Shown in pieces: positions 12,112-27,832 of a DNA stretch of 64,000 nt. Every line of letters begins with the position of its first letter. Positions within the stretch are counted from its first letter, which is position 1. The translations under genes and the position numbers were made by a program. Under the pieces are notes generated by a model. The model saw only the letters and a program-made list of their open reading frames with translations, searched no databases and was not told the DNA's origin. Source of the stretch: a bacterium (GTDB lineage Bacteria; Armatimonadota; Zipacnadia; Zipacnadales; Zipacnadaceae); the NCBI GenBank assembly GCA_030603495.1, contig JAUVXR010000008.1:18591-82590 (forward strand), written 5' to 3'.

Positions 12112-13941
12112 ATGAACCGGTTGGTCCCGATAATTTGCCCCTTCTGCGGGGTTGGCTGTGGGATGTATTTGCAGTGCGAGAGTGAAGTCGCCGCGTCGGC
12201 AGTCCCCAGTCTCAGCGATCCGATATCCCAGGGCCAGTTATGTGTGCGGGGTTGGCAGCTAGGGGACACGTTGCGTAATGCGTCCCGCCTGACTTCCCCC
12301 CTTGTCAAAGGCGAGCCAGTCACTTGGTCCCAAGCTCTGGCTGAAGTTGCCGAGTTGCTTGGGGGCATCGAGAGCAAGCGCGTGGGTGTGGTGGCTGCTG
12401 GTCACCTCACCAACGAGGAAGGCTTCGCTGTCCGCTACTTTGGCCGGCACGTCCTGGGCACATCCCACGTTGACAACTTCGGCCGCGCGGTGGACGGTCC
12501 CAGCCTTTGGGGCCTGCAATACAGCCTGGGTAAGCCGTTCCGGCGGCCTGCGCTAGACGAGATGGTTAACTGCGACTTGTTGGTCTGCCTCAATTCCGGT
12601 CTGCGGCACCTCAATGCGCAAGCTGGATCCTGGGTTAAGAAGGCCCAGCAGGCCGGCGCGCGTGTGGTGGTCCTCGATGAGCTGGATGATGGCCTGGCCA
12701 GCAGTGCTGACATATATATCGAGCACGTACCGGCCGCTACGGCAGCGGTGCTCCAGCAGCTTTTGAAGGTCCTGGCCGGCGGAATAGGCTCAACTGCTGC
12801 GCTCGATATGAGCAATCTCGGTCCCGCAGCGCTTGCCGAGCAGCTTGACAGTGCTGCCAAATTGATAGATGCGGCCCAGCGGGTAGGAATCGTCTTCCCG
12901 ATGCGGGCCTTCGCTACGCCTGAGCCAGGCATACTCGCCGCTGAGCTCGCCAAGCAGATCAATGCCTTGGGAAGCCAGCGGGCCGACATATTCGCGGTTG
13001 CCGGTACGCCCAACTCCGTGGGTCTCGAACAGATGGGTCTGATTCCCCAGGCGTCCGGCGAGACCGAAGCCCTGGGGCTATTTGAGATTCTCGAACCTGA
13101 CCAGCCAGAAGTCGAAGCTATTGTTGTTGTCGGTGAAGAGCTGACCGGCTGGGTCGGCGAGTCCGGCGTCCAGGCGCTCGCGGAAGCAGCGAAACCCCTA
13201 ATCGTGCTGGACAGCTTTCGTACCCCGACCGCCGAGATCGCGGACGTGGCCCTGCCAATGACGGTGCACGCTGAGAAGGCAGGCAGCTTCACGGGGCTGG
13301 AGGGGACTGCCCGGTGGACGGGTCAGGCTGTCGTGCCCCCCCAAGAGGTCCGCTACTTGCCGCAAATACTTAACGAATTGGCTGCGCAACTAGGCAAAGA
13401 GGGCGGTGCGGCAGAGGTTGACGCTATCTGGCAGCAGATTAGCGCTGAAGTATCCGGTTACGAGGATATTGACCTGGGCGCGCTGCGGGACAGCGGGCAG
13501 CAGTCACTTGGCACAGTGTCGCTCGGGCAAGAGAGCGGGCCCGTGGCGCACGACTACCAGCCGCCGGAGCTGGAAGCCTCCGAGCAGTGGCGATATAAGA
13601 TCGTGAGCCGGTATGACCGGAACTGGTGGATAAATGACTGGCGTATGCGGGCCATACCAGTGCTGTTCCGGGAGCTGCGCGACTGGGTGGCAGGATATGC
13701 AATGATGAATCCGGGCGATCTGGAGAAGGAAGGAATACGGCCGGGCCGGCCTGGTCAGCTCACCACGCCCTACGGTGGCGCCGCAGTCGCTCTGCATCCC
13801 CACCCGGGCCTGCCCTCGGGATTAATCCTGCTGCCCGCGCATGAAAATGATCTGGCCGACCAGCTGCTGGGCCCCAGCCGCTACAACCGGCGCAGCGGCG
13901 GCCGGGTGCGCTTCCCGACGCCAGCCAGCCTGCAGACTTAA
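12112..13941 (+). CDS. Molybdopterin-oxidoreductase-like protein lacking the Sec/Cys active-site ligand
   Basis: A 609-residue protein of the MopB superfamily related to formate dehydrogenase alpha subunits and NuoG. The N-terminus binds one [4Fe-4S] cluster (ICPFCGVGCGMYL plus CVRG downstream). In formate dehydrogenase the block VDxCARxU/C-H-GPSVAGL carries the metal ligand and a catalytic His. Here it reads VDNFGRAVDGPSLWGL, so by-eye alignment puts Val at the ligand position and Asp at the His. The protein is therefore unlikely to oxidise formate and may serve as an electron-transfer scaffold, as NuoG does. No in-frame TGA suggests selenocysteine. It is first in a run with HydB-like and HydG-like genes, leading into a Hyf-type hydrogenase. 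Confidence 0.85.
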   Translation: MNRLVPIICPFCGVGCGMYLQCESEVAASAVPSLSDPISQGQLCVRGWQLGDTLRNASRLTSPLVKGEPVTWSQALAEVAELLGGIESKRVGVVAAGHLTNEEGFAVRYFGRHVLGTSHVDNFGRAVDGPSLWGLQYSLGKPFRRPALDEMVNCDLLVCLNSGLRHLNAQAGSWVKKAQQAGARVVVLDELDDGLASSADIYIEHVPAATAAVLQQLLKVLAGGIGSTAALDMSNLGPAALAEQLDSAAKLIDAAQRVGIVFPMRAFATPEPGILAAELAKQINALGSQRADIFAVAGTPNSVGLEQMGLIPQASGETEALGLFEILEPDQPEVEAIVVVGEELTGWVGESGVQALAEAAKPLIVLDSFRTPTAEIADVALPMTVHAEKAGSFTGLEGTARWTGQAVVPPQEVRYLPQILNELAAQLGKEGGAAEVDAIWQQISAEVSGYEDIDLGALRDSGQQSLGTVSLGQESGPVAHDYQPPELEASEQWRYKIVSRYDRNWWINDWRMRAIPVLFRELRDWVAGYAMMNPGDLEKEGIRPGRPGQLTTPYGGAAVALHPHPGLPSGLILLPAHENDLADQLLGPSRYNRRSGGRVRFPTPASLQT

Positions 13942-13953
13942 GAGGTGTAGTTA

Positions 13954-15030
13954 ATGGCCGAGCCGACGGCATACGTTCTGAAAGCAGAAGACCTGCGCCC
14001 GGCAGTTGAACGGCTCTTTGAGCTTGGCGAGGAGGTCATTGCCCCCACTGCCCCCGCGCCCGGCGATGTCTTTTACCGACCGGTGCAGGGTGTAGATGAG
14101 ATCGAGTTCGAGTTTGGCAATGCCCTGGTCTCGCCCGTGCAGTTTCTGATGCCGGCCAAGGAAGTGCTCTTCGAGTACGAGCTGCGGCCGGGCCAGCCGC
14201 CGGAGATAACACCGCCCGAGCCACCATCCGAGCGCATCCTGTTCGGTATCCGGCCCTGCGACATCGCCGCCATCGAGTGCCTGGACCAGTTCTTTATCGA
14301 ACGCGAGCCGGTTGACACCCTGTATGAGCAACGCCGCCAGCGCACGACCCTGATTGCTCTGGCCTGCGCCGAGCCGGCCGCGGATACCTGCTTCTGCTCG
14401 TGCTGCGAGGGCACCGGGCCGGTCGCCGAGAGTGGCTACGATGTGCAACTCAGTCTGGTCGGGGAAGTCTATCTGGTTGAGTTTGCCACCGAAAAAGGCG
14501 AGCGTATCCGCCAGCAATGGCAGGATCTGCTCGAGCCGGCTACTGAAGAGCTCTTCGCCGCCCGCGAAGCGCAACTGCGGTATATGATTGAGAACCTGTT
14601 TGAGCCTGACTCTAACCTGGCGGCGGCCATTCGCCGGGTGACCGGGGACAACGTGGATCCGGAGGCGTGGGAGGAAATCGGTGCGGACTGCTACAGTTGC
14701 GGGGCCTGTTCGTATCTCTGCCCGGTCTGCACCTGCTACGACGTGATGGATGTGCCCTACGATGAGAGCCGAGGCGCGCGGATCCGGCGCATGGACTCGT
14801 GTCGACTGGGTGGATTCACGCGGGAAGCTACCGGACATATTGCCCGGCCCACGGAGGCCTCGCGGGCCCGTTGGTACGCCTATCACAAACTCAGCCACGA
14901 CTACCACGAGCAGCGCAGCAACTACGGCTGTGTGGGGTGCGGGCGCTGCATCATTGCCTGCCTGGGGCAGATCGGCATGCCGACGGTGTGCAAACTGATC
15001 CGCCAGCCCCAAGCAGAAAGAGCAAGCTGA
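13954..15030 (+). CDS. HydB/AsrA-like iron-sulfur electron-transfer subunit
   Basis: A 358-residue protein of the sulfhydrogenase beta / anaerobic sulfite reductase A family, which relays electrons between a flavoprotein partner and a catalytic unit. FGIRPCDIAAIECLD in the middle is a family hallmark. Two ferredoxin-type cluster motifs lie in the C-terminal third: CYSCGACSYLCPVCTC and CVGCGRCIIACLG. The ATG follows AGAGGTG, 12 bases after the molybdopterin-like gene. Its stop codon overlaps the start of the transporter gene (TGATG). The matching gamma subunit is one gene further on. Predicted to be cytoplasmic and attached to the hydrogenase; attachment is inference from gene order. Confidence 0.85.
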   Translation: MAEPTAYVLKAEDLRPAVERLFELGEEVIAPTAPAPGDVFYRPVQGVDEIEFEFGNALVSPVQFLMPAKEVLFEYELRPGQPPEITPPEPPSERILFGIRPCDIAAIECLDQFFIEREPVDTLYEQRRQRTTLIALACAEPAADTCFCSCCEGTGPVAESGYDVQLSLVGEVYLVEFATEKGERIRQQWQDLLEPATEELFAAREAQLRYMIENLFEPDSNLAAAIRRVTGDNVDPEAWEEIGADCYSCGACSYLCPVCTCYDVMDVPYDESRGARIRRMDSCRLGGFTREATGHIARPTEASRARWYAYHKLSHDYHEQRSNYGCVGCGRCIIACLGQIGMPTVCKLIRQPQAERAS

Positions 15031-15743
15031 TGTCACCAGAATTACTTGTTCTGACCATTACCGCCGCTTCACTAGGTTTCTTTCACACCTTGCTGGGGCC
15101 TGACCACTACATACCATTTATTGTAATGGCTCGGTCAGGAAGATGGTCCCTGGTCAAAACAACATGGGTGACTATCTTATGTGGTCTTGGTCATATACTA
15201 AGCTCTGTCCTGCTGGGCACCATTGGCATCGCGTTGGGTATTGGTGTTACAAAACTAGAAGGGGCAGAATCATTTCGTGGTGGCCTGGCGGCCTGGGCCC
15301 TCATTGCTTTTGGACTGGTGTATTTCGTTTGGGGTTTGCGCAGGGCTTTGAGGAATCGGCCGCACACGCATTCGCATGTTCATGAAGACCGCGCTGACCA
15401 CATCCACAGACATGTGCATACCCAAGACCACACGCACGTCCATGCGGCAGAGAAGAGCGCAAATCTTACGCCCTGGATTCTGTTCACGATCTTTGTCCTT
15501 GGCCCCTGTGAGCCGTTGATACCGATGCTTATGTATCCGGCAGCTAAGGGGAGCCTTTTCGGTGTGGTGTGGGTGACCGGTGTGTTCGGTGGGGTCACGA
15601 TCATGACCATGCTAAGCATTGTCCTGGTTTCGTCTTTGGGCGTAGTTCTTCTGCCGCTGAGACAATTGGAACGCTACACCCATGCGTTCGCGGGTGCCGC
15701 GATATGTCTTTGCGGAATGGCAATCCAGTTCCTTGGGTTGTAA
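15030..15743 (+). CDS. UreH/HupE-like metal (probably nickel) transporter with His-rich loop
   Basis: A 237-residue membrane protein with about six helices. GFFHTLLGPDHYIPF near the N-terminus is the metal-binding HxxxGPDH signature of the UreH/NicO transporter group. A cytoplasmic or periplasmic loop around residues 115-145 has more than ten histidines (HTHSHVH, HIHRHVHTQDHTHVH). Nickel import for the hydrogenase is the most likely role, with cobalt as an alternative. Two 60-base lines counted within the gene are 52-53% G+C, against 63% in a line of the preceding gene. This suggests acquisition from elsewhere, although the start overlaps the preceding stop by one base. It separates the beta and gamma subunit genes. 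Confidence 0.8.
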   Translation: MSPELLVLTITAASLGFFHTLLGPDHYIPFIVMARSGRWSLVKTTWVTILCGLGHILSSVLLGTIGIALGIGVTKLEGAESFRGGLAAWALIAFGLVYFVWGLRRALRNRPHTHSHVHEDRADHIHRHVHTQDHTHVHAAEKSANLTPWILFTIFVLGPCEPLIPMLMYPAAKGSLFGVVWVTGVFGGVTIMTMLSIVLVSSLGVVLLPLRQLERYTHAFAGAAICLCGMAIQFLGL

Positions 15744-15771
15744 TCCTGGGGGACAGGAAAAAGGAACAGCT

Positions 15772-16599
15772 ATGGCGCACGACGACTACATACCGATGCA
15801 CGCTCGGGTCGCGGAGATCACCGACGAGACCCCGACCGAAAAGACCTTCACGCTGGAGTTTGTGGAAGACGAGCTTCCCTTCCGCCCCGGCCAGTTCTGT
15901 ACAATTTCCGTATTGGGTGCCGGCGAGGCGCCCTTCTGTATTGCCTCCTCACCGGCCCGCAGTGACGCGATCCAGGTAACGGTTCGCCGCTATCCGCAAG
16001 GAACGGTCACCTCAGCCCTTCACGAGTTGGCGGTTGGGGACTATGTCGGCGTACGTGGGCCGATGGGCAACGGCTTCCCCCTTGAGGAATTCACGGGCCG
16101 AGATATCCTGGTCGTCGCCGGGGGCATCGGCTTGCCTGCTGTCCGTGCCTCTATCCTGTATTTGCTCGAACATCGTAGTGCTTACCGTAATGTAACCTTG
16201 TTGTATGGCGCGCGCACACCGGCCGATCGGGTCTACAATGACGATCTGGCGCAGTGGGAGCAGTCGCCCGAGATAGTATGCAGACAGACCGTGGACATGA
16301 AGGACGAGGCTGATGACTGGGATGGCCACGTCGGTCTCATCACCACCTTGTTCGAGCCCCTGGACATGGACGGGCCGCAAACCACGGCCATAATAGTGGG
16401 CCCGGCAGTCATGTATCCCTTCGTCGTGGCAGAATGTCGGCAGAAGGGTATCACAGACGAGAATATGTATTTCTCACTGGAAGCGCAGATGAAGTGTGGG
16501 GTGGGCAAGTGCGGCCACTGTGCGATGAAGGACAAGTACGTGTGTCTTGACGGGCCGGTCTTCACCTACGCGCAGATGCGGGAGATGCAGGAGTACTAG
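15772..16599 (+). CDS. HydG/AsrB-like FAD/NAD(P)-binding iron-sulfur subunit
   Basis: A 275-residue ferredoxin-NADP reductase-type flavoprotein, the gamma subunit type of sulfhydrogenases and AsrB of anaerobic sulfite reductase. The FAD-binding beta barrel has FRPGQFCTISVLG and FCIASSP. The NAD(P) domain has VAGGIGLPAVRASI. The C-terminus carries the [2Fe-2S] cysteines in MKCGVGKCGHC followed by YVCLDGPVF. It should exchange electrons between NAD(P)H and the HydB-like protein. Its ATG at 15772 follows AAGGA. Together with the two preceding catalytic-module genes it would form a soluble NAD(P)H-linked unit of the hydrogenase; that assembly is inferred. Confidence 0.88.
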   Translation: MAHDDYIPMHARVAEITDETPTEKTFTLEFVEDELPFRPGQFCTISVLGAGEAPFCIASSPARSDAIQVTVRRYPQGTVTSALHELAVGDYVGVRGPMGNGFPLEEFTGRDILVVAGGIGLPAVRASILYLLEHRSAYRNVTLLYGARTPADRVYNDDLAQWEQSPEIVCRQTVDMKDEADDWDGHVGLITTLFEPLDMDGPQTTAIIVGPAVMYPFVVAECRQKGITDENMYFSLEAQMKCGVGKCGHCAMKDKYVCLDGPVFTYAQMREMQEY

Positions 16600-16630
16600 C
16601 GTTAGCTATAACCATTCCGGGAGGCTCCCA

Positions 16631-17038
16631 GTGGCAAAGATACTTGTCGTGGATGACGACCCGAAAATCACCCGCGTCATTCAGGTCGCTCTGCAGACCC
16701 AGGGTCACGAGACTCTCACGGCCAACTCGAAGGAGGAGGCCGAGGCGGTGGCGGTCGCCGAGAAACCTGACCTGATGATCGTTGATGTGATGATGCCCGA
16801 GGGAACCGAAGGGTTTCACCTGGTCTGGAAGATCCGCCAGATGGAAGATGAGGCCCTAAGAAACGTACCGATCATAATGGCCACCGGCATTCACGAGACG
16901 ACCGAGTTGCGCTTCTATCCCGACCAGGCCGACGGGACTTACGAGCCCGGAGAGTTTCTGCCGGTCCAAGAGTGGATTGACAAGCCCATCGCGGTTGAGG
17001 GCCTGCTCAAGAAGGTCAGTGCTCTTCTCGAAGAATAG
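16631..17038 (+). CDS. Stand-alone response regulator receiver protein
   Basis: A 135-residue CheY-like receiver domain without an output domain. The acidic pocket (LVVDDDPK), phospho-acceptor aspartate (LMIVDVMMPEG), conserved Thr (IMATG) and Lys (WIDKPI) are all present. The loop between the Thr and Lys blocks is longer than usual. The GTG at 16631 follows GGGAGG. It sits inside the hydrogenase locus between the HydG-like gene and the maturation protease. Control of hydrogenase activity or a relay to another protein is possible. The CHASE2 kinase at 6642 is the nearest candidate partner. Confidence 0.88.
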   Translation: MAKILVVDDDPKITRVIQVALQTQGHETLTANSKEEAEAVAVAEKPDLMIVDVMMPEGTEGFHLVWKIRQMEDEALRNVPIIMATGIHETTELRFYPDQADGTYEPGEFLPVQEWIDKPIAVEGLLKKVSALLEE

Positions 17039-17085
17039 CGGCCGCGTCGCTTCCCGCAGGCGATGTCGCTCGGAATTAGCGCGAA

Positions 17086-17568
17086 ATGCTAGAAACGATA
17101 AGTCACCTGGCGCAGTACCCAAATCAGCATCTGCTGGTAGTAGGAGTGGGTAACCCCCTGCGCGGCGATGATGCCGCCGGGTTGATCCTGGGCGAGAAGG
17201 TCGCCACAAGGTTGGGGCTGGCATACCTGTGCTGTGAAGAGGTACCCGAGAATTATCTCGGGGAAATGTTGGACAATCCGGCGGACACGATCTTGGTGGT
17301 GGATGCCGTAGATATGAATGCCGAGGTGGGAGAGATCAAGCTGCTGCCCCTCGAGGAGTTGGCGGCGGAGAGTATCTCGACTCATAACTGCTCGGTGAGC
17401 CTCCTGGCGACAGTGCTAGCTGGGGTGAAGGGCAAGGAGATGCTGGTGCTGGGTATTCAGCCTTACAGCCTCGGGTGGGGTCAGGACCTGACAGCGGCGA
17501 TCAGCGTGGCGATTGAGCGGTTTGTGGCCGGTTTGCCGGAGGGGAACAGCGCCGCCCCGCCACAGTAG
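17086..17568 (+). CDS. hycI: Hydrogenase maturation protease (HycI type)
   Basis: A 160-residue nickel-dependent endopeptidase that removes the C-terminal extension of the large subunit once the NiFe centre is installed. The signature GVGNPLRGDDAAG, the second acidic site VVDAVDM and the histidine in STHNCS are visible, all expected nickel-sensing ligands of the HybD/HycI fold. Its substrate should be the large subunit at 24655-26322, which has a cleavable tail after DPCFSC. No clear ribosome-binding site precedes the ATG. The next 123 bases before the first antiporter-like gene hold nothing recognisable. Confidence 0.9.
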   Translation: MLETISHLAQYPNQHLLVVGVGNPLRGDDAAGLILGEKVATRLGLAYLCCEEVPENYLGEMLDNPADTILVVDAVDMNAEVGEIKLLPLEELAAESISTHNCSVSLLATVLAGVKGKEMLVLGIQPYSLGWGQDLTAAISVAIERFVAGLPEGNSAAPPQ

Positions 17569-17691
17569 TCAATTCGGCAAGAATCACTGTGGGCAGTTTC
17601 CGAGCGCCTACGGACCAACAAGTCACAGACCGCAGAAGTTGGACGCTACTTCAATGATGGTCCGTCGAGGCCAAGTGAGAAGTGGGGATAG

Positions 17692-19197
17692 ATGACAGCA
17701 TTAGCTGAGATATCAGCACGCGATTTGCTCGTGCCCCTGGTCGCCGCACCCCTGATCGGGGCGCTGCTGTGCGTATTTCTGAAGCGACGAGCCAGCGACT
17801 ACGTGGCGGCGATCTTTGCCGTTATCACTCTGGTGTTAGCCGCAGGCGCGATCGGCAACCTGTTTACCGATCTGGACACTACTCACCGCCTGCCCCTGGG
17901 CTGGCTGGCTAACCTTGCCGGTGAAAGCGGCCCCGCGCCTCTGGTCTTTGAACTCTCGATTGATGCCCTCAGCGCTCTGATGCTGTTTGTGGTGACGGTG
18001 ATAGGCTTCCTGGTGGTCATCTATTCCTCCGAATACCTCAGCCCGCGCAACGTCGAGCATCCCGTTACCAACGGCAAAGGCCGCTACTACGCCTGGCTGT
18101 TGTTTTTCGTAGGGGCGATGGTGGGCATAGCCCTGGCCGGCAACTTCTTCCAGTTGTTTATATTCTGGGAGATTACCACACTCTGTTCGTGGGCGCTGAT
18201 CTCTTACTATCAGGATGAGGCTTCGCTGAGGGCGGGTTTCAAGGCGCTGATAATGACCGCCGTCGGCGGGTTGTTCTTCCTGCTGGCGCTGGTGCTGATG
18301 TACTTGAACCTGGACACTGACCCATTCGCCTTTGATGCGCTGGGACGATTGGCGCCCGGCCTGCGCTCTTTGGTCTTTGTGTTTTTGTTGATCGCGGCCT
18401 GGGCCAAAGCCGCGCAGTTTCCCTTCTTCACCTGGCTGCCCGATGCGATGGCCGCGCCGACGCCGATTAGCTGCTATCTGCATGCCGCCGCTATGGTCAA
18501 GGCCGGGGTTTACCTGATCGCTCGAGTAGTCTCGGCCAGCTACGGCTTGTCCTACGGTGTGGGGCTGCTGAGCGGCATTATGGCCCTGGCTACGATCCTC
18601 ATCGTCGTCTTCCTGTTTCTGTTTCAGGACGACCTTAAGAAGATATTGGCGCTCTCGACCATCAGCCATTTGGGCTATATTCTGATCGCCTGCGCTCTGG
18701 GGGTGTGGGGTTCGGCTACGGCCTTCCAGGGCGGGCTGCTGCATATCGCCGCGCACGGCTGTGGCAAGGGCCTGCTGTTCCTGTCGGTGGGGATGATCAC
18801 GTATTTCACCGGCACCCGGCGCATTTCCGAGCTCTCAGGACTGGGTGCTCGCCTGCCAATTGTTGCCCTCGGCTTCTTCGTGGGAGCATTCACGGTTACC
18901 GGCGTGCCGCCGCTGGCCGGCTTCTGGAGCAAATTCCTTATCCTCACCGGCGGCCTGGAGTTGGGCGGGTTCGGGGCAGTGATTGCTATTCTGTTGCTAG
19001 TGGAAAGTATGATCGCCTTCGGATTCTTCCTGTGGGTCGGTCAACGAGTGTTCTTCGGGGCGCCTTCTTTCGATATGCCGCAGGGCAAGGGTGTCGCCTG
19101 GCCGATGACCACGGCGATCATCATCCTGGCTGTGCTTTGCCTGGCGGTGACGCTGTTCGCCTTGCCGGTAATCCAACACATACCGCTGGGGATGTGA
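17692..19197 (+). CDS. Hydrogenase-4 antiporter-like membrane subunit (HyfD/NuoM type)
   Basis: A 501-residue polytopic protein with about 14 hydrophobic helices, homologous to Mrp antiporter and complex I subunits. Residues needed for proton transfer are retained: Glu in FWEITTLCSW, Lys in AWAKAAQFPFFTWLPDAM, Lys in MVKAGVYL and Lys in GFWSKFLIL. In Hyf/Hyc-type hydrogenases such subunits couple electron flow to ion pumping in the cytoplasmic membrane. It is the first of three antiporter-like genes here. By length and position it may take the HyfD place, which in Escherichia coli lies after hyfC; the letter assignment is tentative. Confidence 0.9.
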   Translation: MTALAEISARDLLVPLVAAPLIGALLCVFLKRRASDYVAAIFAVITLVLAAGAIGNLFTDLDTTHRLPLGWLANLAGESGPAPLVFELSIDALSALMLFVVTVIGFLVVIYSSEYLSPRNVEHPVTNGKGRYYAWLLFFVGAMVGIALAGNFFQLFIFWEITTLCSWALISYYQDEASLRAGFKALIMTAVGGLFFLLALVLMYLNLDTDPFAFDALGRLAPGLRSLVFVFLLIAAWAKAAQFPFFTWLPDAMAAPTPISCYLHAAAMVKAGVYLIARVVSASYGLSYGVGLLSGIMALATILIVVFLFLFQDDLKKILALSTISHLGYILIACALGVWGSATAFQGGLLHIAAHGCGKGLLFLSVGMITYFTGTRRISELSGLGARLPIVALGFFVGAFTVTGVPPLAGFWSKFLILTGGLELGGFGAVIAILLLVESMIAFGFFLWVGQRVFFGAPSFDMPQGKGVAWPMTTAIIILAVLCLAVTLFALPVIQHIPLGM

Positions 19198-19204
19198 ACT
19201 AACA

Positions 19205-21238
19205 ATGGCGGTTATTGACCTGCTAATTGGAGCACTGATCCTGTTGACTGTGGGGGCAGCGGTTACCGCGCTGCTGGCCAAGTGGCGGGCAGTCTGCGGC
19301 TACGTGGCCTTCCTGTTTGTCGCCGTCGCCTCGGTTTGGGTAGGCGTGGCGGCGTTTCACGTGCTCAGCACCGGGTCGCCCCTATCTGGTGCTCCCGTCT
19401 TAACCATTGCCCCGCTCAACAGCTCACTGGTCTTTACAGTGGACGGACTAAGCGCGGTGTTCCTGCTCATCACCAGTCTGGTCGCAGTGTGTGCCACGCT
19501 CTTCTCGGTACGCTATATGCTCGTTTACAAGCACCACAGCCTGATACGTTACTACCCGATTCTGTTGCTGTTCTTTGCTAGTGTCATCAGCGTAGTCTCC
19601 GTGCGAAATATGCTGTTTTTCCTGGTCTTCTGGGAGTTTATGACCCTGGCGTCGTATGTGCTGGTTGTCTTCGAGACGGATAATCCCGAGGCTCGGCGGG
19701 CCGGCCTGCAGTACTTCATCGCTACCCACATCGCCAGCGGTTGTATCCTGCTGGCCACGATATTGTTGTATACCTATGCTCCGGTTAAGTCTTTCGAGTT
19801 CGGGGCGCTGTTGGAGGGAACCAGGGTGTTGATGACTACGAGTCCGGCTTTGGTTCACCTAATTCTGGGGCTATTTGTCATCGGCTTTGCCACCAAGGCG
19901 GGCATTCTGCCCTTCGGCTTCTGGTTACCTCAGGCACATCCCGTTGCCCCCAGCCCCTTTTCGGCGGTATTGTCAGGCTGTATGGTCAAGCTCGGGGTGT
20001 ATGGTCTGCTGGTGGTCTTCACCTCGCTGACGCCGCTGTCGCACTTTACAACGGTCTGGGGCGTTTGGCTAGCGGCGCTGGGCACCATCTCCGTCTTCGT
20101 GGCTTCGCTTACGGCTCTGCAGCAGACCGATTCCAAACGGCTACTGGCTTTCAGCACGATCGGACAGATGGGCTACATCTGGCTGGGCATAGGAACTGGT
20201 CTCGCGTTGCTGCGCATCAGTCCGGCCGTCGCGGTTGTCGCTTTAATGGCAGGTCTGTTTCATGTGGTCAACCACGCTTGTTTTAAGTCGTTGCTGTTCT
20301 TGAATGCCGGCGCGGCTTTGTATCGGACCGGGACGCGGGATATGGACAAGGCGGGTGGATTGATGCGAATAATGCCGGTGACTGCCGCTGCCGCCATCGT
20401 TGGCTCCTTGGCAATTGCGGGAGTCCCTGGCCTCAACGGTTTTGCCAGCAAGTGGCTGATATTCACAAGCGGCATTGTCGGCGGGTTGGAAATTCCCTTG
20501 TTTGTCTTCCTGGTTGTAGTGGCAATTTTCATATCTGCGGTGACACTGGCCTACTACATGAAGTTTGTGGGCATCCTATTTCTGGGCAAACTGCACGTCG
20601 GACCTGAGGTGGAGCGCCGCGAGGTGCCGGTCAGTATGGTCGTTCCGCAGGTGTTCATGGGCATCCTGTGTGTGGCGTTCGGGGTATTGCCCATGCTGGC
20701 GCTCAAGTACCTGTATGTGGCCGCTAGCGGGATTCTGCCTCCGGGCTACTCGCCACCGTTCGCCTCGCTGTTTGGCAACTCGGCGCTCGCCGTGCGCCTC
20801 GGCCTTAGCGGGGTGCACAGCGCTGCCTGGGGCCCGCTAGCTATTCTGGTGGCGTTCGCCGGCTGTCTGGTGTTGGGCTATCTTATCTCCCGGATGGGTG
20901 GGGCTCAGACTCGGGAAGTCCCGATGTGGCTATGCGGAGAGGAGCACGACTTCGCCGAAGTCAGGTATCCGGCACACAGCTTCCTGCTGACTTTCAACGA
21001 GTATTTCGCGAAGTTGTATCCGTCTATTCCCGTACCTAGACTGCCTCGTCCGGCCGCCATATTGAGGCTGTTTGATATTGACAGGTGGTTCTACTCTCCG
21101 GGTCTGAGGTGGGGCGAGCGGATCATTCGCGCCATCAGCGCTACTCACGCGGGCTATCCCCAATTGTATATGCTGTGGATGATTGTAGGGGCGGCTTTGG
21201 CTGTGATCGTACTGTTCAGTATGGGAGGCGGACTGTAG
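19205..21238 (+). CDS. hyfB: Hydrogenase-4 component B (HyfB/NuoL-like)
   Basis: A 677-residue antiporter-like subunit, close to the usual length of HyfB. Conserved membrane motifs are FWEFMTLASYVLVVF, FATKAGILPFGFWLPQAHP, SGCMVKLGVYG and FASKWLIF. The extra 150 residues at the C-terminus, including MWLCGEEHD and a terminal transmembrane helix, match HyfB/HycC rather than the shorter HyfD and HyfF. The ATG is 7 bases after the stop of the preceding gene. It should form part of the ion-translocating arm. Confidence 0.9.
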   Translation: MAVIDLLIGALILLTVGAAVTALLAKWRAVCGYVAFLFVAVASVWVGVAAFHVLSTGSPLSGAPVLTIAPLNSSLVFTVDGLSAVFLLITSLVAVCATLFSVRYMLVYKHHSLIRYYPILLLFFASVISVVSVRNMLFFLVFWEFMTLASYVLVVFETDNPEARRAGLQYFIATHIASGCILLATILLYTYAPVKSFEFGALLEGTRVLMTTSPALVHLILGLFVIGFATKAGILPFGFWLPQAHPVAPSPFSAVLSGCMVKLGVYGLLVVFTSLTPLSHFTTVWGVWLAALGTISVFVASLTALQQTDSKRLLAFSTIGQMGYIWLGIGTGLALLRISPAVAVVALMAGLFHVVNHACFKSLLFLNAGAALYRTGTRDMDKAGGLMRIMPVTAAAAIVGSLAIAGVPGLNGFASKWLIFTSGIVGGLEIPLFVFLVVVAIFISAVTLAYYMKFVGILFLGKLHVGPEVERREVPVSMVVPQVFMGILCVAFGVLPMLALKYLYVAASGILPPGYSPPFASLFGNSALAVRLGLSGVHSAAWGPLAILVAFAGCLVLGYLISRMGGAQTREVPMWLCGEEHDFAEVRYPAHSFLLTFNEYFAKLYPSIPVPRLPRPAAILRLFDIDRWFYSPGLRWGERIIRAISATHAGYPQLYMLWMIVGAALAVIVLFSMGGGL

Positions 21239-21265
21239 GCCTCCTGGGAAGCAAGGGTTGAGATA

Positions 21266-22159
21266 ATGACCTTCGCAATTAACCTGGGCCTGGCTTTGCT
21301 AATTGGCCCCCTGCTGGCTGGGATTGTGCGCAAGGTGGTGCGGGCGCGCGTCCACTCGCGCCAGGGCCCACCTATCACCCAGCCGTTCTACGATCTGCTT
21401 AAGCTGCTGGGCAAAGAGGACCTGCAATCTGTACCCAGCCTGGTAGTGCAGTATGCACCGCTGGTGGCTTTCGCAAGCGTCCTGGTGGCGGCCCTGCTCA
21501 CGCCGATGGGGATGCGGGCGCCGCTGGGCCAGTACGGCGATATGATCGTTTTTGCCTATTTTGTTACTATCGCAGCGGTGGCAGTCGTAATGACGGGCTT
21601 GGCCTGCGCGAGTCCCTACTCGATGATAGGCGCTGGCCGCGAGATAATGATGCACCTGGTAGTCGAGCCGGTGCTGATCATCTGCTTGATTACTGCCGCC
21701 ATCAAGGCGGGGTCGCTACTGATGTGGGATATGGCGGCGTGGAATTACCTCAACGGACCGGCGCCCTCGATGGTAGTAACGGCAGTGGTGCTGTTCTTGG
21801 CCCTGCAGGCCCAGGTTGGCAAGCTGCCCTTTGATATTCCCGAGGCCGACCAGGAGATTATGGGCGGACCGTTCATTGAGCTAAGTGGGCCGAAGCTGGC
21901 GATGTTCCAGTGGGCCTTCTTCGCCCGCCAGGTCGTATATGCCTCGGTCCTGGCGGTCATCTTCATTCCCTGGGGGCTTGGTTTCGCTTTTCCGTGGAAT
22001 GTGGGCGCGCACCTGCTGAAGGTCATCGTGCTCATCGTGCTCGTGGGCGTCATTGATGTGGTGAACCCGCGGCTGCGCATAGACCAGGCTATGTCCTATT
22101 TCTTCTGGGTCATCTTTGTGGCGATAGTGGCCATGGCCCTTGCCTTAATCGGCGTCTAG
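21266..22159 (+). CDS. hyfC: Hydrogenase-4 component C (HyfC/NuoH-like)
   Basis: A 297-residue membrane subunit with eight or so helices, homologous to NuoH and HycD, which connects the catalytic module to the antiporter-like subunits. Family motifs are visible: GIVRKVVRARVHSRQGP, QPFYDLLKLLGKED, and KLPFDIPEADQEIMGGP with ELSGPKLAM (compare PFDxxEAExEL in NuoH). The acidic loop residues thought to form the proton path near the quinone-binding region of complex I are retained. It sits 27 bases after hyfB, in the Hyf gene order. Confidence 0.92.
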   Translation: MTFAINLGLALLIGPLLAGIVRKVVRARVHSRQGPPITQPFYDLLKLLGKEDLQSVPSLVVQYAPLVAFASVLVAALLTPMGMRAPLGQYGDMIVFAYFVTIAAVAVVMTGLACASPYSMIGAGREIMMHLVVEPVLIICLITAAIKAGSLLMWDMAAWNYLNGPAPSMVVTAVVLFLALQAQVGKLPFDIPEADQEIMGGPFIELSGPKLAMFQWAFFARQVVYASVLAVIFIPWGLGFAFPWNVGAHLLKVIVLIVLVGVIDVVNPRLRIDQAMSYFFWVIFVAIVAMALALIGV

Positions 22160-22194
22160 CCGGCTATGGGGTGCAAAGAGGAGAGTAACCAGCA

Positions 22195-22860
22195 ATGTAC
22201 GATAGCGCAATCCTGGCCCTGACATTGGGTGTGCTCACAACCGGGGTGATCGCAGCGGAACTGCGCGACTTGGCGGCCTCTACCTGGGCCTACCTCGTCC
22301 ATTCCCTGTTCCTGGCGGGCACCTTCGCTGCCTTCGCCATCGTCACAGATAGCCCCCAGCTATACTGGTGGGTATTGGCGGCGGTTCTTACCAAAGTCAT
22401 CTTCATTCCTTTGCTGCTGCGGTGGTATATCACCAGGCATCCCGCCGCCGACCTGCGCCCGATATTGAGCCCCCGACTATCTCTGGTCATCCTGGCCGTG
22501 CTGTTGATTGTCTTCTTCAAAGTGGTGCATACCTACATGGAATTCATTGGCCCGACTGAGGCCGCCATTGCGGAGCCGGGCCGCTCCAATCTGGCCGTGG
22601 CCTTTACGGTGTTTGCCGTAGGGCTTTATATCCTCGTTACCCGGCGGGATGCGGTCAAGAACGTCATTGGCATATGTCTACTGGAAAATGGGGCGCACCT
22701 GTCTTTGGTGGTGCTAGCCGCTACCTTGCCCCAGACAGTATTGATAGGCATTGCGACTACCATCGTGATTTCTGTGTGGGTTCTGGTCTACATAACTAGC
22801 GGGGTATACCAGATACTTGGCACACCGGATACCGCCAAGCTGTCGCAATTACGTCACTAA
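22195..22860 (+). CDS. hyfE: Hydrogenase-4 component E (HyfE, NuoK-related)
   Basis: A 221-residue protein with about seven transmembrane helices, matching the usual HyfE length. The C-terminal half contains NVIGICLLENGAHLSLVV, the NuoK-like signature with the membrane Glu used in proton transfer. HyfE is a membrane subunit in hydrogenase-4 and related group 4 enzymes but absent from hydrogenase-3. Its presence therefore marks the complex as Hyf type. AGGAGAG lies upstream of the ATG. Confidence 0.88.
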   Translation: MYDSAILALTLGVLTTGVIAAELRDLAASTWAYLVHSLFLAGTFAAFAIVTDSPQLYWWVLAAVLTKVIFIPLLLRWYITRHPAADLRPILSPRLSLVILAVLLIVFFKVVHTYMEFIGPTEAAIAEPGRSNLAVAFTVFAVGLYILVTRRDAVKNVIGICLLENGAHLSLVVLAATLPQTVLIGIATTIVISVWVLVYITSGVYQILGTPDTAKLSQLRH

Positions 22861-22889
22861 CGAAATAGCTCATAACCGGGAGCTGTACT

Positions 22890-24389
22890 ATGATGGCTGA
22901 GTCGTCGCTGCCCATAGCTCTGATCGGTATGCCTGTCCTGGCTGCAGTAATCGTCCTCACCCTGGGGCGGAAGCTGAGGCTGTGCCGGGAGGGAGCGGCC
23001 GTGGGTGGCGCCTTGGTGACATTGTATATAGCAGTCCTGGTTGCCGCTCAGGTGCTGCGGGGAACAGAACTGTGGTCCTGGGGTAGGGCTCTGCATGTCG
23101 ATGGCCTGAGCAGCTTGATGGTTGTGCTGGTGAGTTTGGTAGCCCTAATCATCGTTGTGTATTCCCTGCGGTATATGCGTCACCAGGTTGAACAGGGCAG
23201 GACCACCACGCAGCGACTGGTGGTCTATTATGGCCTACTGATGCTTTTCCTGGCCGCGATGATGTGGGTGTGCCTCACCAATAGTATGGTCTGGATGTAT
23301 GTCGCGATAGAGGGCACCACCTTGGTCACGGCCCTCCTGGTATGTTTTTACTGGGATCCCCGGGGGCTGGAGGCCAGTTACAAGTACGTATTGCTGGTGG
23401 TGGCTGGGGTTTGCTTCGCTCTGTTTGGGACGGTGCTGCTATATTCGGCAGCAGCCCAATATGCGCCCGGCCGGCCGGCCCTGTTGCTTACCGAGTTAGG
23501 AGAGATAATTGCCCGGTTCCCCGACAGTGCCCAGACCGTGAGTCTGCTGGCCGTAGCCTTCTTCGTGGTTGGCTTTGGTACCAAGGCCGGACTGGTTCCG
23601 TTCCACGCCTGGCTGCCCGACGCCCATGCCGAGGCTCCTGCGCCTATCAGTGCGCTGCTGTCCGGGCTAGTGATTAAGGTAGGCGCCTACGCCCTGGCCC
23701 GCACCATCACCATCTTTGCCCCCCACTACGACGCGGTAATAGTCTTCGTGGCCATTATGGCCTCAGCCAGTATGCTCATTGGCATATTCATGGCGTGGGC
23801 GCAGGACGACCTCAAGAGGCTGCTGGCCTTTCACAGTGTCAGTCAGATTGGTTACGTAATCGAAGGGCTGGGGTTCGGCACTTATTTGGGGGTATATGGC
23901 GGCCTGTTCCACCTCGTCAACCATACCCTGTTCAAGGCACTCCTATTCCTCAGCGTCGGCGCGGTGATGTATGCCACTGGCGGCCTACGCCGGATAAGCC
24001 AACTCAAGGGCTTGGGCCGCCGCATGCCCATAACCGCGGCTTGCTTCTTCATCGGGGCTATTGCTATGGGCGGACTTCCGCCTCTAAACGGCTTCTGGAG
24101 CAAGCTGACACTATTCATGGCCGGCGGTGAACTACGCCTATGGTGGGCCGTTGCTATAGGTGTCTTGGTCAGTATCTTGACTTTAGGTTGCATGGTCCAC
24201 GCCGGTTACAAGATCTTCTGGGGGCATCCGACAACCGAGCCGGCCACCAATCCGGGTCTCAAAGAGGTGCCAATCAGTATCTGGCTGAGTATGGCGGTAT
24301 TGGCAATTCTGTGTATTGTGATCGGCGTCTATCCGCAGATTATTCACCCGCTGCTGCACCGCGCCACCGAGTGCATCCTGGCTTTCTAG
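22890..24389 (+). CDS. hyfF: Hydrogenase-4 component F (HyfF/NuoN-like)
   Basis: A 499-residue third antiporter-like subunit. Key residues are present: Glu in AIEGTTLVTALL, Lys in FGTKAGLVPFHAWLPDAHAE, Lys in LVIKVGAYAL and Lys in FWSKLTLF. HyfF normally follows HyfE and precedes the large subunit gene, as here. It presumably lies next to HyfE in the membrane arm. The stop is followed by a 265-base gap that contains a small interrupted reading frame and then hyfG. Confidence 0.9.
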   Translation: MMAESSLPIALIGMPVLAAVIVLTLGRKLRLCREGAAVGGALVTLYIAVLVAAQVLRGTELWSWGRALHVDGLSSLMVVLVSLVALIIVVYSLRYMRHQVEQGRTTTQRLVVYYGLLMLFLAAMMWVCLTNSMVWMYVAIEGTTLVTALLVCFYWDPRGLEASYKYVLLVVAGVCFALFGTVLLYSAAAQYAPGRPALLLTELGEIIARFPDSAQTVSLLAVAFFVVGFGTKAGLVPFHAWLPDAHAEAPAPISALLSGLVIKVGAYALARTITIFAPHYDAVIVFVAIMASASMLIGIFMAWAQDDLKRLLAFHSVSQIGYVIEGLGFGTYLGVYGGLFHLVNHTLFKALLFLSVGAVMYATGGLRRISQLKGLGRRMPITAACFFIGAIAMGGLPPLNGFWSKLTLFMAGGELRLWWAVAIGVLVSILTLGCMVHAGYKIFWGHPTTEPATNPGLKEVPISIWLSMAVLAILCIVIGVYPQIIHPLLHRATECILAF

Positions 24390-24449
24390 CGGGTCGGAGC
24401 TATGCACTAGCCAACTAGAGGGCCAGATGCGGCCGGTGATAAGAAAAAG

Positions 24450-24569
24450 ATGACTTGTAGTGTCGAGAAGTGGTAGCACCTGACCGGCTTTCGGGGCTTT
24501 GTGCCCGTCGCCGATGAAGAGTATGAATTGGTGCGGCAGCTTATGGCCCAGGCGGGGGTGCCGTACTGA
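24450..24569 (+). pseudogene. Small reading frame interrupted by an in-frame amber codon
   Basis: From ATG at 24450 the frame reads MTCSVEKW, then TAG at 24474, then HLTGFRGFVPVADEEYELV and a further 12 residues to TGA at 24567. The part after the amber codon has protein-like composition and good codon usage for this genome. The simplest reading is a small conserved protein of 39 residues with a nonsense change (TAG from a Tyr codon). Recoding or a sequencing error would look the same. I do not recognise the family. It lies between hyfF and hyfG, where E. coli has no gene. Confidence 0.35.
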
Positions 24570-24654
24570 ACAAGTATTAACAAGTCGGCGTCTTATGAAG
24601 CAGAGCAGCATGTGTAACATGCTAACATAATGGGCGATGGAAAGAGAATCTATC

Positions 24655-26322
24655 ATGACTGCACAATCGTTTGGTGACAGTCTGAAAAACAAATTCGGAG
24701 ACAAGCTGTTGGAGGTCGAGGCAGCGGGTGTGGACCAGTTGTATGTGAGGATCGTTCCCGAGTGTCTAGTCGAGGTTGCTGACTATCTTTACAACGATGA
24801 AGGCTGTCGGTTTGTGATCAACTCCGGCACCGACCGTCGCGAGCACAACGGCAAGTTTCTGATCACTCACTTCTTTGCCCAGGATGAGGAGAATCTGTAC
24901 ATCGCTGTCCACGCCGAGGTGGATGGCAACGACCCCCGTATTGACTCAATCACTCCCGTCGTTCCGGCCGCGAACTGGTCTGAGCGGGAAGCCCGGGATA
25001 TGGTGGGGGTAGCACCTGAGGGGCATCCCGATCCGCGTCGGCTGGTGCTGGCTGATGACTGGCCGGAGGACCTCTACCCGTTGCGTACCGACGTTGAGCA
25101 CGGGATCAAGCCCGAGTCCTGCCCAGATGTGGCTATGCCGCTTGTTGAGCCGCCGGAGGGCGCCAGCGTGGTGCCGATCGGCCCGTATTTCCCGGTGCTT
25201 GAAGAGCCCGCATATTTCCGCATCTTCGTCGAGGGTGAAACCGTGGTGGGTGCGGATTACCGGGGCTTTTACAATCATCGTGGTGTGGAAAAACTCGGCT
25301 GCAGTGTCCTGACTTACAATCAGATACCGTTCATGGCAGAGCGCATCTGCGGCATCTGCGGGTTCGTCCATAGTTGCTCCTACTGCCAGGCTGTGGAGCG
25401 GGCCGCGGGCATCGAGGTGCCGGAGCGCGCCGAATATGTCCGCACCATAATGTTGGAGGTGGAGCGTGTACAGAGCCATCTGCTGTGGTTAGGTATTGCC
25501 GGCCACATTATCGGCTTCGACACGGTGCTGATGCAGACCTGGCGGATGCGCGAGCCGCTGATGTGGCTGTGCGAGCGGATTACGGGAAACCGCAAGACTT
25601 ACGGGATGAATCTGATCGGCGGTGTGCGCCGCGACATCACGGCTGATGTTCACGGTGACATTACCGATGTACTTGCTAAGATCGAGAAGGAGTGGCGCGC
25701 CCTGTACGATGCTATTCCTGGCGACCCGACGCTGATGGCCCGGCTCAAGGGTACTGGGGAGCTGCCCGAGGAGAAGGCCCGCGAATTGGCGGTAGCCGGG
25801 CCAACTGCTCGCGGCTCCGGCGTTGCCATTGATGTGCGAGTGGACCACCCGTATGCGGCCTACGATCGGCTCGATGTCAAGAAGTGCGTCTATGACAGTT
25901 GCGACAATGTGGCGCGCGTGCTGGTCCGTTTGGATGAGACGCTGGACGCGATCGACATCATCCGGCAAGCCTTGGATGATATGCCCGACGGCCCCATAAT
26001 GGCCGAGATTGGCGAGGAGATCCCCGCTGGCCTTGAGGCGATGAGCGCGGTCGAAGCACCCCGGGGTGAGGTCTTTCACTGGGTACTCACCGGCGAGGAG
26101 AACCGTCCCGAGCGCTGGCGCGTGCGGGCTCCTACCTATGCGAATCTGCAGGCCGTGCCGACCATGGTAACGGGCGACGCGCTGGCCGACGTGCCTATTG
26201 ATGTGGGCAGTTTCGACCCTTGCTTCTCGTGCACCGAGCGAATGGAGGTCACTGACCTGAAGTCGGGGATCATTCGAGTCTATACCCAAGATGAAGTATT
26301 GGCTTTGAGGCAATCCAAGTAG
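24655..26322 (+). CDS. hyfG: [NiFe]-hydrogenase large subunit with NuoC-like N-terminus (HyfG/HycE type)
   Basis: A fused subunit of 555 residues. The N-terminal 150 residues resemble NuoC (WSEREARDMVGVAPEGHPDP). The rest is the catalytic subunit. NiFe ligands are intact: RICGICGFVHSCSY near residue 230 and DPCFSCTERMEV near the C-terminus, followed by about 25 removable residues. A functional NiFe site distinguishes it from complex I NuoD. The start at 24655 (MTAQSFG) is chosen behind GGAAAGAGA; an in-frame ATG at 24637 is possible. Group 4 enzymes of this type usually evolve H2 and pump ions. Maturation needs HypA-F and the HycI protease, all encoded here. Confidence 0.95.
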   Translation: MTAQSFGDSLKNKFGDKLLEVEAAGVDQLYVRIVPECLVEVADYLYNDEGCRFVINSGTDRREHNGKFLITHFFAQDEENLYIAVHAEVDGNDPRIDSITPVVPAANWSEREARDMVGVAPEGHPDPRRLVLADDWPEDLYPLRTDVEHGIKPESCPDVAMPLVEPPEGASVVPIGPYFPVLEEPAYFRIFVEGETVVGADYRGFYNHRGVEKLGCSVLTYNQIPFMAERICGICGFVHSCSYCQAVERAAGIEVPERAEYVRTIMLEVERVQSHLLWLGIAGHIIGFDTVLMQTWRMREPLMWLCERITGNRKTYGMNLIGGVRRDITADVHGDITDVLAKIEKEWRALYDAIPGDPTLMARLKGTGELPEEKARELAVAGPTARGSGVAIDVRVDHPYAAYDRLDVKKCVYDSCDNVARVLVRLDETLDAIDIIRQALDDMPDGPIMAEIGEEIPAGLEAMSAVEAPRGEVFHWVLTGEENRPERWRVRAPTYANLQAVPTMVTGDALADVPIDVGSFDPCFSCTERMEVTDLKSGIIRVYTQDEVLALRQSK

Positions 26323-26351
26323 CTGGCCTGATAGGGAGGTCTTAGCTCAAA

Positions 26352-26852
26352 GTGCTCAGCAAGCTTAAAGAAGCTATACTATGTTTCGCAGCCGGGATAG
26401 TGACGCTCAGGTATCCGTTTGCGCCCCACGACCCCGAGGGCGAAGAGGGCGAATTTCGTGGTTATCCGGAGGTAGACGTCAACCGGTGCATTGGCTGCGG
26501 CGGCTGCGCGGCAGTTTGCCCGGCTCGGGCTATTATGATTGAGGACATTGATCAAACCACGCGCCGGATAACCCGTCTGCGCGAGCGCTGTATCTACTGC
26601 GGGCGCTGTGCCGAGGTCTGTCCGCAGGACGCTATCACCATGACCAAGCAGTTCGAACTCGCTTCGGACAAGGTGCGGGAGGATCTCGAGCATGTTTGCG
26701 AGGTCTTCATGGCTACCTGTAAGCGCTGCGGGCGCTGCTACGAGCCCGCCTCGCCGCTGGATAAGATTATGGAGCCAGGCTACCGGCACGACGAGATCAA
26801 GCGCGGCGGCCAGGAGCCGCTGTACGAGCCAGTTGAGGCGTCCAGCGAATAG
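26352..26852 (+). CDS. hyfH: Hydrogenase-4 ferredoxin-type subunit (HyfH/NuoI-like)
   Basis: A 166-residue protein carrying two [4Fe-4S] clusters (CIGCGGCAAVCPARA and CIYCGRCAEVCPQDA), the electron wire between the input module and the small subunit. A third cysteine group, CKRCGRCYEP near residue 120, is shared with HycF/HyfH rather than NuoI and may bind zinc or another metal. The GTG at 26352 has GGGAGG upstream at a long spacing. It lies 29 bases after hyfG. Confidence 0.9.
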   Translation: MLSKLKEAILCFAAGIVTLRYPFAPHDPEGEEGEFRGYPEVDVNRCIGCGGCAAVCPARAIMIEDIDQTTRRITRLRERCIYCGRCAEVCPQDAITMTKQFELASDKVREDLEHVCEVFMATCKRCGRCYEPASPLDKIMEPGYRHDEIKRGGQEPLYEPVEASSE

Positions 26853-26897
26853 TCCCGGGCGGGCAGGTTTGCCGGCTGGTAACAGGAGGAATATGAA

Positions 26898-27455
26898 GTG
26901 GGCTTTTTCAAGAACTTGTGCAACAAGGCCTTCCCCAAGTCATTGTGGGTCTATCACACCAATACCGGGGCCTGCAATGGCTGCGATATTGAGGTAATTG
27001 ACGTACTGACGCCGTACTATGATGTCGAGCGCTTCGGGATCAAGCTGGTGGGCTCGCCGCGCCACGCCGACGTGCTGCTGGTTTGCGGTCCGGTGACTCG
27101 CCAGATAGTCCCGGCCCTCAAGCGGCTCTACGAGGCTGTGCCCGCTCCCAAACTGGTCATCGCTATTGGGTCGTGTGCCTCGGGAGGAGGCATCTGGTTT
27201 GATAGCTACAATATCGTCGGTGGCGCCGACACGATCCTGCCCGTGGATTACTATATTCCCGGTTGCCCGCCGCGGCCCGAGGCTATTCTCCACGGAGTCG
27301 CCGTGGCCCTGGGACTCGCCGAGAAGAAGGTAGCCCGCGAGCACATTAAGCAGCTCATTGACCGCAATGAGTCTATCTCCGTTGAGGATGATACTGGAGC
27401 CGAAGAGGTCGTGCCGGGGGACGAGGTGCCAGCGGAGCTGCCGACTTCGAAATAG
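26898..27455 (+). CDS. hyfI: [NiFe]-hydrogenase small subunit (HyfI/NuoB-like)
   Basis: A 185-residue small subunit binding the proximal [4Fe-4S] cluster. Cysteines appear in GACNGCDIEV, VCGPVTRQ, AIGSCASGGG and YYIPGCPPRPEAIL, all canonical for NuoB/HycG. The C-terminal 25 residues are acidic and low in complexity. The GTG at 26898 follows AGGAGG. It is the last structural gene, convergent with hypA, which ends 11 bases away on the other strand. Confidence 0.92.
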   Translation: MGFFKNLCNKAFPKSLWVYHTNTGACNGCDIEVIDVLTPYYDVERFGIKLVGSPRHADVLLVCGPVTRQIVPALKRLYEAVPAPKLVIAIGSCASGGGIWFDSYNIVGGADTILPVDYYIPGCPPRPEAILHGVAVALGLAEKKVAREHIKQLIDRNESISVEDDTGAEEVVPGDEVPAELPTSK

Positions 27456-27466
27456 GCGTGTAGGGG

Positions 27467-27832
27467 CTACGAATTGCCGGCTTCCTCCGCGGAATCGGCC
27501 AGCTCTGCGCTCAGTATCTGAAGCTCGAAGCCCGACTCTATTGACAAATCAAGACTCCCGCACTTGCAGCACTTCACAAACGGCTGGTATTCCTCCGTTA
27601 CAGTGCTACACTCGTTACACCGGGCATGCACAGGCATTTGCTTAATGTGCAGCGTAGCGCCCTCCAGGTCAGTACCCTTGATGACGTGGGGCCAGGCTTC
27701 ACTCAGCAGTTCCGGGACCACTGTGCTCAGTGGGCCGATAGCGACGGTGGCGCTCAAGAGCTTCCGGTGGTGTTGCTGGGCGAGTTCGGCAAGCTGGTGT
27801 GCGATGCTGCTGGCGATAGAGAATTCATGCAT
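27467..27832 (-). CDS. hypA: Hydrogenase nickel incorporation protein HypA
   Basis: A 121-residue nickel metallochaperone. It begins with MHEFSIA, whose Met1-His2 amine binds nickel. The structural zinc site is formed by ARCNECSTV and VKCCKCGSL near residues 70-95. It works with HypB to insert nickel into the hydrogenase large subunit. The gene is oriented against all other hydrogenase genes and is divergent from hypB, with 213 bases between them. Confidence 0.93.
   Translation of the reverse strand: MHEFSIASSIAHQLAELAQQHHRKLLSATVAIGPLSTVVPELLSEAWPHVIKGTDLEGATLHIKQMPVHARCNECSTVTEEYQPFVKCCKCGSLDLSIESGFELQILSAELADSAEEAGNS

Follow-up and report, generated by a model that had tools for sequence, protein, structure and literature searches.

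A Hyf-type NiFe hydrogenase gene block with a formate dehydrogenase-like protein predicted to be inactive and HydB/HydG subunits in a relative of Candidatus Zipacnadia

Genes of the block and the hydrogenase core

The window analyzed here, a stretch of 64,000 nucleotides, is part of contig C58 of a sediment bacterium with a genome of 2.67 Mb in 62 contigs, whose nearest relatives are metagenome-assembled genomes (MAGs) named Candidatus Zipacnadia, a class within Armatimonadota. This study concerns a gene block at 12112-27455, lying entirely on the + strand in the order MopB-HydB-(NicO-like)-HydG-(response regulator)-HycI-HyfDBCEFGHI, with hyp genes after hyfI. As listed below, it joins a group 4 NiFe hydrogenase to MopB, a protein resembling formate dehydrogenase (FDH), and to subunits of the HydB and HydG types (aa, amino acids; Mo, molybdenum; TM, transmembrane helix).

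12112-13941, + strand: MopB, FdhF-like, 609 aa, without the Mo-ligand residue, [4Fe-4S] Cys kept; proposed electron-wiring/docking subunit
13954-15030, + strand: HydB/AsrA-type beta subunit, 358 aa, with a Fer4_22 dicluster domain and a further Cys-rich segment
15030-15743, + strand: NicO/UreH-like (PF13386) His-rich membrane protein, its start overlapping the hydB stop (TGATG)
15772-16599, + strand: HydG/AsrB-type gamma subunit, 275 aa, with FAD-binding, NAD-binding (GGIG) and 2Fe-2S motifs
16631-17038, + strand: stand-alone response regulator receiver domain, found at the same place in some congeners only
17086-17568, + strand: HycI-type hydrogenase maturation protease
17692-19197, + strand: HyfD, antiporter-like subunit 1, TM5 Glu, TM7/8 Lys and TM12 Lys motifs kept
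19205-21238, + strand: HyfB, antiporter-like subunit 2
21266-22159, + strand: HyfC, NuoH/HycD-like membrane anchor
22195-22860, + strand: HyfE
22890-24389, + strand: HyfF, antiporter-like subunit 3
24637-26322, + strand: HyfG, fused 30-kDa/49-kDa NiFe large subunit
26352-26852, + strand: HyfH, ferredoxin-like subunit with two [4Fe-4S]
26898-27455, + strand: HyfI, NuoB-like small subunit, 4 Cys

The intergenic gaps of the block were mainly 50 bp or less, with exceptions of 123 bp before hyfD and 247 bp before hyfG. A promoter scan was not used further, its promoter-like sites being no commoner than in shuffled sequence, and an Rfam search of the window gave no match. A preliminary description of this DNA had placed a hydrogenase, a MopB protein and HydB/HydG here, and all of them were found at the coordinates it gave, on one strand. 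Every gene it named was right, but it had passed over the NicO/UreH-like protein, the response regulator and the HycI protease inside the block. The NicO/UreH-like protein is a possible Ni permease, and its gene is missing from the mapped loci of relatives.

The results showed that the hydrogenase is complete and of the Hyf/Hyc group 4 type, with an L1 motif RxCGxC..H, an L2 motif DPCxxCxxR, a fused large subunit and HyfB/C/D/E/F/H/I partners, which bears out the earlier account of a complete group 4 enzyme with three antiporter-like subunits, HyfE and an intact NiFe site. HyfG (561 aa) carries RICGICGFVH (L1) and DPCFSCTER (L2) with all four ligand Cys, followed by a C-terminal tail of 26 aa for cleavage, and its best solved relative was HycE in the structure 7z0s of the Escherichia coli formate hydrogenlyase (FHL), at 462 bits. 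Unlike the hydrogenase-related complex Ehr, which loses NiFe ligand Cys, the window HyfG thus keeps its metal site. The TM7/TM8 Lys and TM12 Lys motifs were kept in HyfD, HyfB and HyfF, as was the TM5 Glu motif in HyfD and HyfB, and HyfF, too, shows a TM5 Glu in its sequence. In a PF00374 search of the genome this HyfG was the only NiFe large subunit over the cut-off, and no FeFe hydrogenase was found in the genome.

Loss of molybdenum-site residues and conserved linkage

MopB was aligned residue by residue to E. coli FdhF. The Fe-S ligands Cys8, 11, 15 and 42 of FdhF correspond to C9, C12, C16 and C44 and are kept, and Lys44 corresponds to R46, while selenocysteine (Sec) 140, His141, Arg333 and Gln335 are replaced by V127, D128, A297 and T299, respectively. 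The same pattern was found in hydrogenase-linked relatives: none of 39 such MopBs has Cys or Sec in the Mo-ligand column, where 13 different residues occur, and the four Fe-S Cys are kept in all 39. Furthermore, 36 active FDHs share 115 almost invariant columns, and at 32 of these no more than 20% of the dead MopB set has the conserved residue. This alignment indicates that MopB is catalytically dead as a formate dehydrogenase, and the preliminary description had rightly called it a dead molybdoenzyme.

An AlphaFold2 model of MopB (pLDDT 90, pTM 0.91) matched formate dehydrogenases along its whole length, FdhH inside the E. coli FHL (7z0t_A) giving Z 32.5 over 591 residues at 3.2 A. Matches to NuoG-type chains covered about 430-440 residues at Z 28-29, and the fold of 8oh5_C, from the Stn transhydrogenase, was matched as well. 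By this model MopB is a whole FDH fold, C-terminal domain included, without the catalytic residues. As a side observation, a separate clade of MopB proteins of 780-990 aa, mostly from Chloroflexi (L097, L100, L106, L116, L117), carries Tyr (DNGSRLY) or His (DNGSRMH) in place of the Mo ligand, possibly representing another inactive FDH-like group.

A survey covered 48 dead-MopB loci, classed by the length of contig downstream. HydB and HydG were present in 40/40 loci with more than 2.5 kb downstream, and Hyf genes in 37/37 loci with more than 5 kb, so that the linkage of the trio with hyf genes, for which the preliminary description had suggested a genome survey, proved tight and wide. These loci span many Armatimonadota families, candidate division KSB1 (L093) and Holophagae (L126), and by our own count of strong matches about 26 of the 46 genomes of the class have one. 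Since the gene order recurs in tens of genomes, it is not due to chance. The number of antiporter-like subunits per locus ranges from one to the three of the window.

The trio was also found with intact FDH motifs in marine Gammaproteobacteria (L064-L111, for example L067 9057-13986). In L067 and Photobacterium a FocA-like transporter gene stands in front of FdhF-HydB-HydG, with no hydrogenase genes nearby, and such clusters probably encode an NAD(P)-linked formate dehydrogenase. Occurrence of the three genes apart from the hydrogenase in relatives had been named in advance as telling against a joint complex; only this intact-FDH version stands alone, and no dead MopB without hydrogenase was seen among the 37 loci with more than 5 kb downstream.

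HydB resembles the beta subunit of Pyrococcus SHI (9nez_B, E 2e-39), and the nearest solved relative of HydG is the SHI gamma subunit (9nez_C, E 8e-50); both score below the curated NCBIfam cut-offs and are counted as homologues only. HydB occurs once in the window genome and once in each congener searched whole, at this locus; in the fragmented congener G005 the single copy lies on a separate contig piece. That MopB-HydB-HydG might serve another enzyme was considered and set aside, with no other NiFe large subunit or HydB, and no FeFe hydrogenase, found in the genome. Assignment of the pair to AsrA/AsrB of a sulfite reductase was rejected for want of AsrC: the siroheme subunit had no match over the cut-off in the window genome or in any of the 46 genomes of the class (0/46). 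In a published survey covering this class among others, sulfite reduction was deduced from the presence of 'Asr' in 65/77 MAGs (PMC10290634). Because AsrC is absent over the cut-off throughout, these calls may in part, or for the most part, stand for HydB/HydG belonging to this complex and its relatives, and 'anaerobic sulfite reductase' in Zipacnadia genomes may in part mean subunits of this hydrogenase. In many Armatimonadota, HydB-HydG pairs also adjoin HdrABC/FrhB/MvhD-like genes in Flox-like clusters (L150, L156, L163).

Phylogeny and relation to known systems

All trees were built quickly, with a single measure of support, and rest on an assumed root. The MopB tree placed the dead MopBs on one side of a branch (SH-aLRT 95), together with a KSB1 protein (L120) that also lacks the ligand, while active FDHs formed another clade (99) and NuoG a third (99). 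By both tree and fold MopB lies closer to formate dehydrogenases than to NuoG, and its identification as NuoG was rejected on account of the separate clade and the lower structural match. In the HydB tree, dead-MopB-linked HydBs formed one clade (95), which grouped with FDH-linked HydBs (98) against the HydBs of group 3b and those linked to Hdr. Direct descent of the trio from the gammaproteobacterial FdhF-HydB-HydG was considered and not adopted: the HydB tree groups them (98), but the HydG tree places them far apart.

Two loci of relatives, L114 and L124, encode true FHL, with an intact FdhF bearing Cys, HycB and HyfDBGC, and L114 lies in the same MAG as a dead-MopB locus (L054). In the HyfG tree these FHL proteins were nested within the dead-MopB HyfGs, so at least one exchange of input modules took place, in one direction or the other. 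The earlier idea that a formate module was replaced by an NAD(P)H module holds in that HydB-HydG stand in place of HycB/HyfA, but not in full, since an FdhF-like protein was kept, though catalytically dead by comparison with L114 and L124.

The gene arrangement itself is not new. A group 4 region of Saganbacteria RX5A was reported in 2019 to comprise a hydrogenase with Mrp antiporter-like subunits, an unclassifiable molybdopterin oxidoreductase, CooF, AsrA and AsrB; it was termed 'enigmatic', an oxidoreductase module was proposed, and related hydrogenases were noted in Zixibacteria and Omnitrophica (Matheus Carnevali et al. 2019, PMC6349859). As far as that description of the region goes, its gene set matches that of the window, the CooF-like gene being found in RX5A only, and this is the one earlier report of the arrangement. 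What is added here is its breadth, the loss of Mo-site residues with the Fe-S wire kept, the clade structure, the single-copy argument and the reinterpretation of 'Asr'.

Membrane hydrogenases of the type found here usually act in formate cleavage. Compared with E. coli Hyf (FHL-2/hydrogenase-4) and Hyc (FHL-1), the block has in common the HyfBCDEFGHI set, the NiFe motifs and an FdhF-fold protein. It differs in lacking HyfA/HycB and HyfJ/HycH, in a MopB without the Sec/Cys, His and Arg of FdhH, in the added HydB/HydG and in the HycI gene inside it. With the active FDH residues replaced (V127, D128, A297) and no HycB/HyfA gene in 12112-27455, it is not a formate hydrogenlyase. Homologues of HydB and HydG are shared with group 3b sulfhydrogenase (Pyrococcus furiosus SHI), but the window genome has no group 3b large subunit and its HydB belongs to another clade. 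The Stn transhydrogenase of Sporomusa ovata (StnABC) also has a catalytically inactive FdhF-like domain (PMC10482914); unlike the window system it has a GltD-type NADPH site and a HydBC-type bifurcating partner, and no hydrogenase. Complex I likewise sets a dead FDH-fold subunit and a pyridine-nucleotide flavoprotein (NuoEFG) on a group 4-related core, whereas the window has HydB/HydG instead of NuoE/NuoF, a MopB outside the NuoG clade and a NiFe site instead of a quinone site.

Proposed activity, alternatives and host context

We consider it rather probable that the block encodes a single complex in the membrane, in which a Hyf-type (group 4) NiFe hydrogenase has MopB-HydB-HydG as its soluble electron-input module. 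The best reading of its activity would be an ion-translocating NAD(P)H:H+ (or H2:NAD(P)+) oxidoreductase with MopB as a wiring or docking subunit. Because the same set recurs in dozens of genomes, it probably couples NAD(P)H to H2 and ion pumping, much as complex I couples NADH to quinone. NAD(P)H would be oxidized at HydG, and electrons would pass through the FAD and 2Fe-2S of HydG to the 4Fe-4S clusters of HydB, then to the 4Fe-4S cluster of the dead MopB, or past MopB serving as a scaffold, and on through HyfH and HyfI to the NiFe site of HyfG (2H+ <-> H2), with ions translocated by HyfC and the antiporter-like HyfD/B/F. The preliminary description had proposed a proton-pumping NAD(P)H- or ferredoxin-linked hydrogenase; the genes are neutral on ferredoxin and agree with the NAD(P)H link, an NAD(P)H input of the HydB/HydG type with a dead MopB being linked to a complete Hyf in a genome with no other NiFe hydrogenase or HydB, and from them we infer joint assembly of the subunits, NAD(P)H use by HydG, the electron path, cofactor preference, pumping and direction.

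The direction is probably reversible. The potential of NAD(P)H is about -320 mV, and that of H+/H2 rises from -414 mV at 1 bar to about -266 mV at 10^-5 bar. Electron transfer from NAD(P)H to H2 is thus favorable only at low H2, where 54 mV for two electrons amounts to about 10 kJ per mol and falls short of the cost of one proton at a usual proton-motive force. NAD(P)H alone would pay for at most about one ion per H2 even then, and with so low a yield it is unlikely to drive three full strokes of pumping for each H2. Two plausible modes are H2-driven NAD(P)+ reduction and H2 evolution with help from ion influx or from another low-potential donor.

Several points weigh against the proposed complex and its activity. 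With NAD(P)H as sole donor, the energy available is a poor match for three pumping subunits, and some relatives (L018, L022 and most of family f5) have a single antiporter-like subunit. The HydG tree was mixed and did not recover dead-MopB-linked HydGs as one clade, and nearly all the genomes are MAGs. MopB may also be a scaffold only, a live alternative because in the solved structure of StnABC the clusters of the inactive FdhF-like domain lie off the electron path (PMC10482914).

The weakness of NAD(P)H as sole donor for three antiporter-like subunits speaks for a second reading, that reduced ferredoxin, entering via HyfH or HydB clusters, and NAD(P)H together drive H2 evolution with several pumped ions. 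HydBG-like pairs occur, by gene content, in Hdr/FrhB/MvhD-like clusters resembling flavin-based bifurcating systems, and the window genome has no RnfC over the cut-off and no FeFe hydrogenase was found in it. However, the cluster contains no HdrA-, NfnB- or HydBC-type bifurcating flavoprotein, the locus has no HycB/CooF-type ferredoxin subunit, and no extra flavin site was identified, so we regard such confurcation as unlikely.

The hydrogenase-free clusters of marine Gammaproteobacteria show that the trio can work alone when its MopB is active, as would be expected if MopB-HydB-HydG were a separate soluble NAD(P)H oxidoreductase merely co-transcribed with the hydrogenase. The standalone MopBs are intact FDHs, however, and dead ones were never seen without Hyf genes on long contigs; a dead MopB also has no evident soluble acceptor. 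A separate enzyme appears quite unlikely. That MopB still binds pterin and carries out another reaction, perhaps non-redox or Asp-liganded, has in its favor an Asp at position 128 in 21/39 family members and the full FDH-like fold with its C-terminal domain. D128 aligns with His141 and not with the Mo ligand, though, the ligand column is that variable, and Arg333, Gln335 and many FDH-invariant positions are lost, which makes a live MopB highly improbable.

The preliminary description had also likened this enzyme to an intermediate step from group 4 hydrogenases to complex I. A surviving intermediate would account for the shared plan of dead FDH-like protein, pyridine-nucleotide flavoprotein and group 4 core, but it is barely credible given the position of MopB, the lack of homology of HydB/HydG to NuoE/NuoF, and the need for at least two losses of the Mo site if activity never came back. 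For the first two reasons the system is better read as parallel to the complex I input module. We tentatively suggest that a complex-I-like machine was built a second time, an FDH minus its Mo site having come to wire an NAD(P)H dehydrogenase of the HydB/HydG type to a NiFe hydrogenase that pumps ions, parallel and not ancestral to NuoEFG, with Sec in the L1 pair of some members (L038, L093). It has long been asked how a dead formate dehydrogenase gave complex I its NADH-oxidizing arm, and a widespread enzyme with the complex I plan, other flavoprotein parts and a NiFe end would make the wiring, the pumping and the role of the dead Mo-protein testable by H2/NAD(P)H assays.

In the window genome a complex-I-type locus lies on contig C39 (L131, 9979-19800) with no NuoE/F/G nearby, and the only NuoF homologue adjoins a Cys-type FdhA on C61. 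The survey mentioned above found Rnf nowhere in Zipacnadia, and a complete Nuo in none of its MAGs (PMC10290634). The block thus gives Zipacnadia, with no Rnf reported and complex I without an NADH arm, a candidate membrane-bound site of NAD(P)H/H2 coupling.

The HyfG gene of L038 (reverse strand, about 964-993) has in-frame TGA at both L1 ligand Cys (RI-TGA-GI-TGA-GFIH), and that of L093 (18667-18696) has one (RICGI-TGA-GSVH). Strong short hairpins resembling the selenocysteine insertion sequence follow the TGA directly in both, the two strongest of 41 homologous sites, and SelB was over the cut-off in both genomes and not in the window genome or G103. Together the TGA codons, hairpins and SelB point to probable Sec in L1 of a group 4 hydrogenase; characterized NiFeSe enzymes carry it in L2.

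The hyp genes next to the block are listed below.

27467-27832, - strand: HypA, by resemblance, with no NCBIfam match at E<=1e-20; homologues adjoin hyfI in relatives
28046-28702, + strand: HypB
28663-30957, + strand: HypF
31260-32354, + strand: HypD
32383-33396, + strand: HypE

Elsewhere in the window, 6642-9512 and 45655-47589 encode two CHASE2-like sensors, assigned by eye, of which one ends as a histidine kinase and the other resembles an adenylate cyclase at its end.

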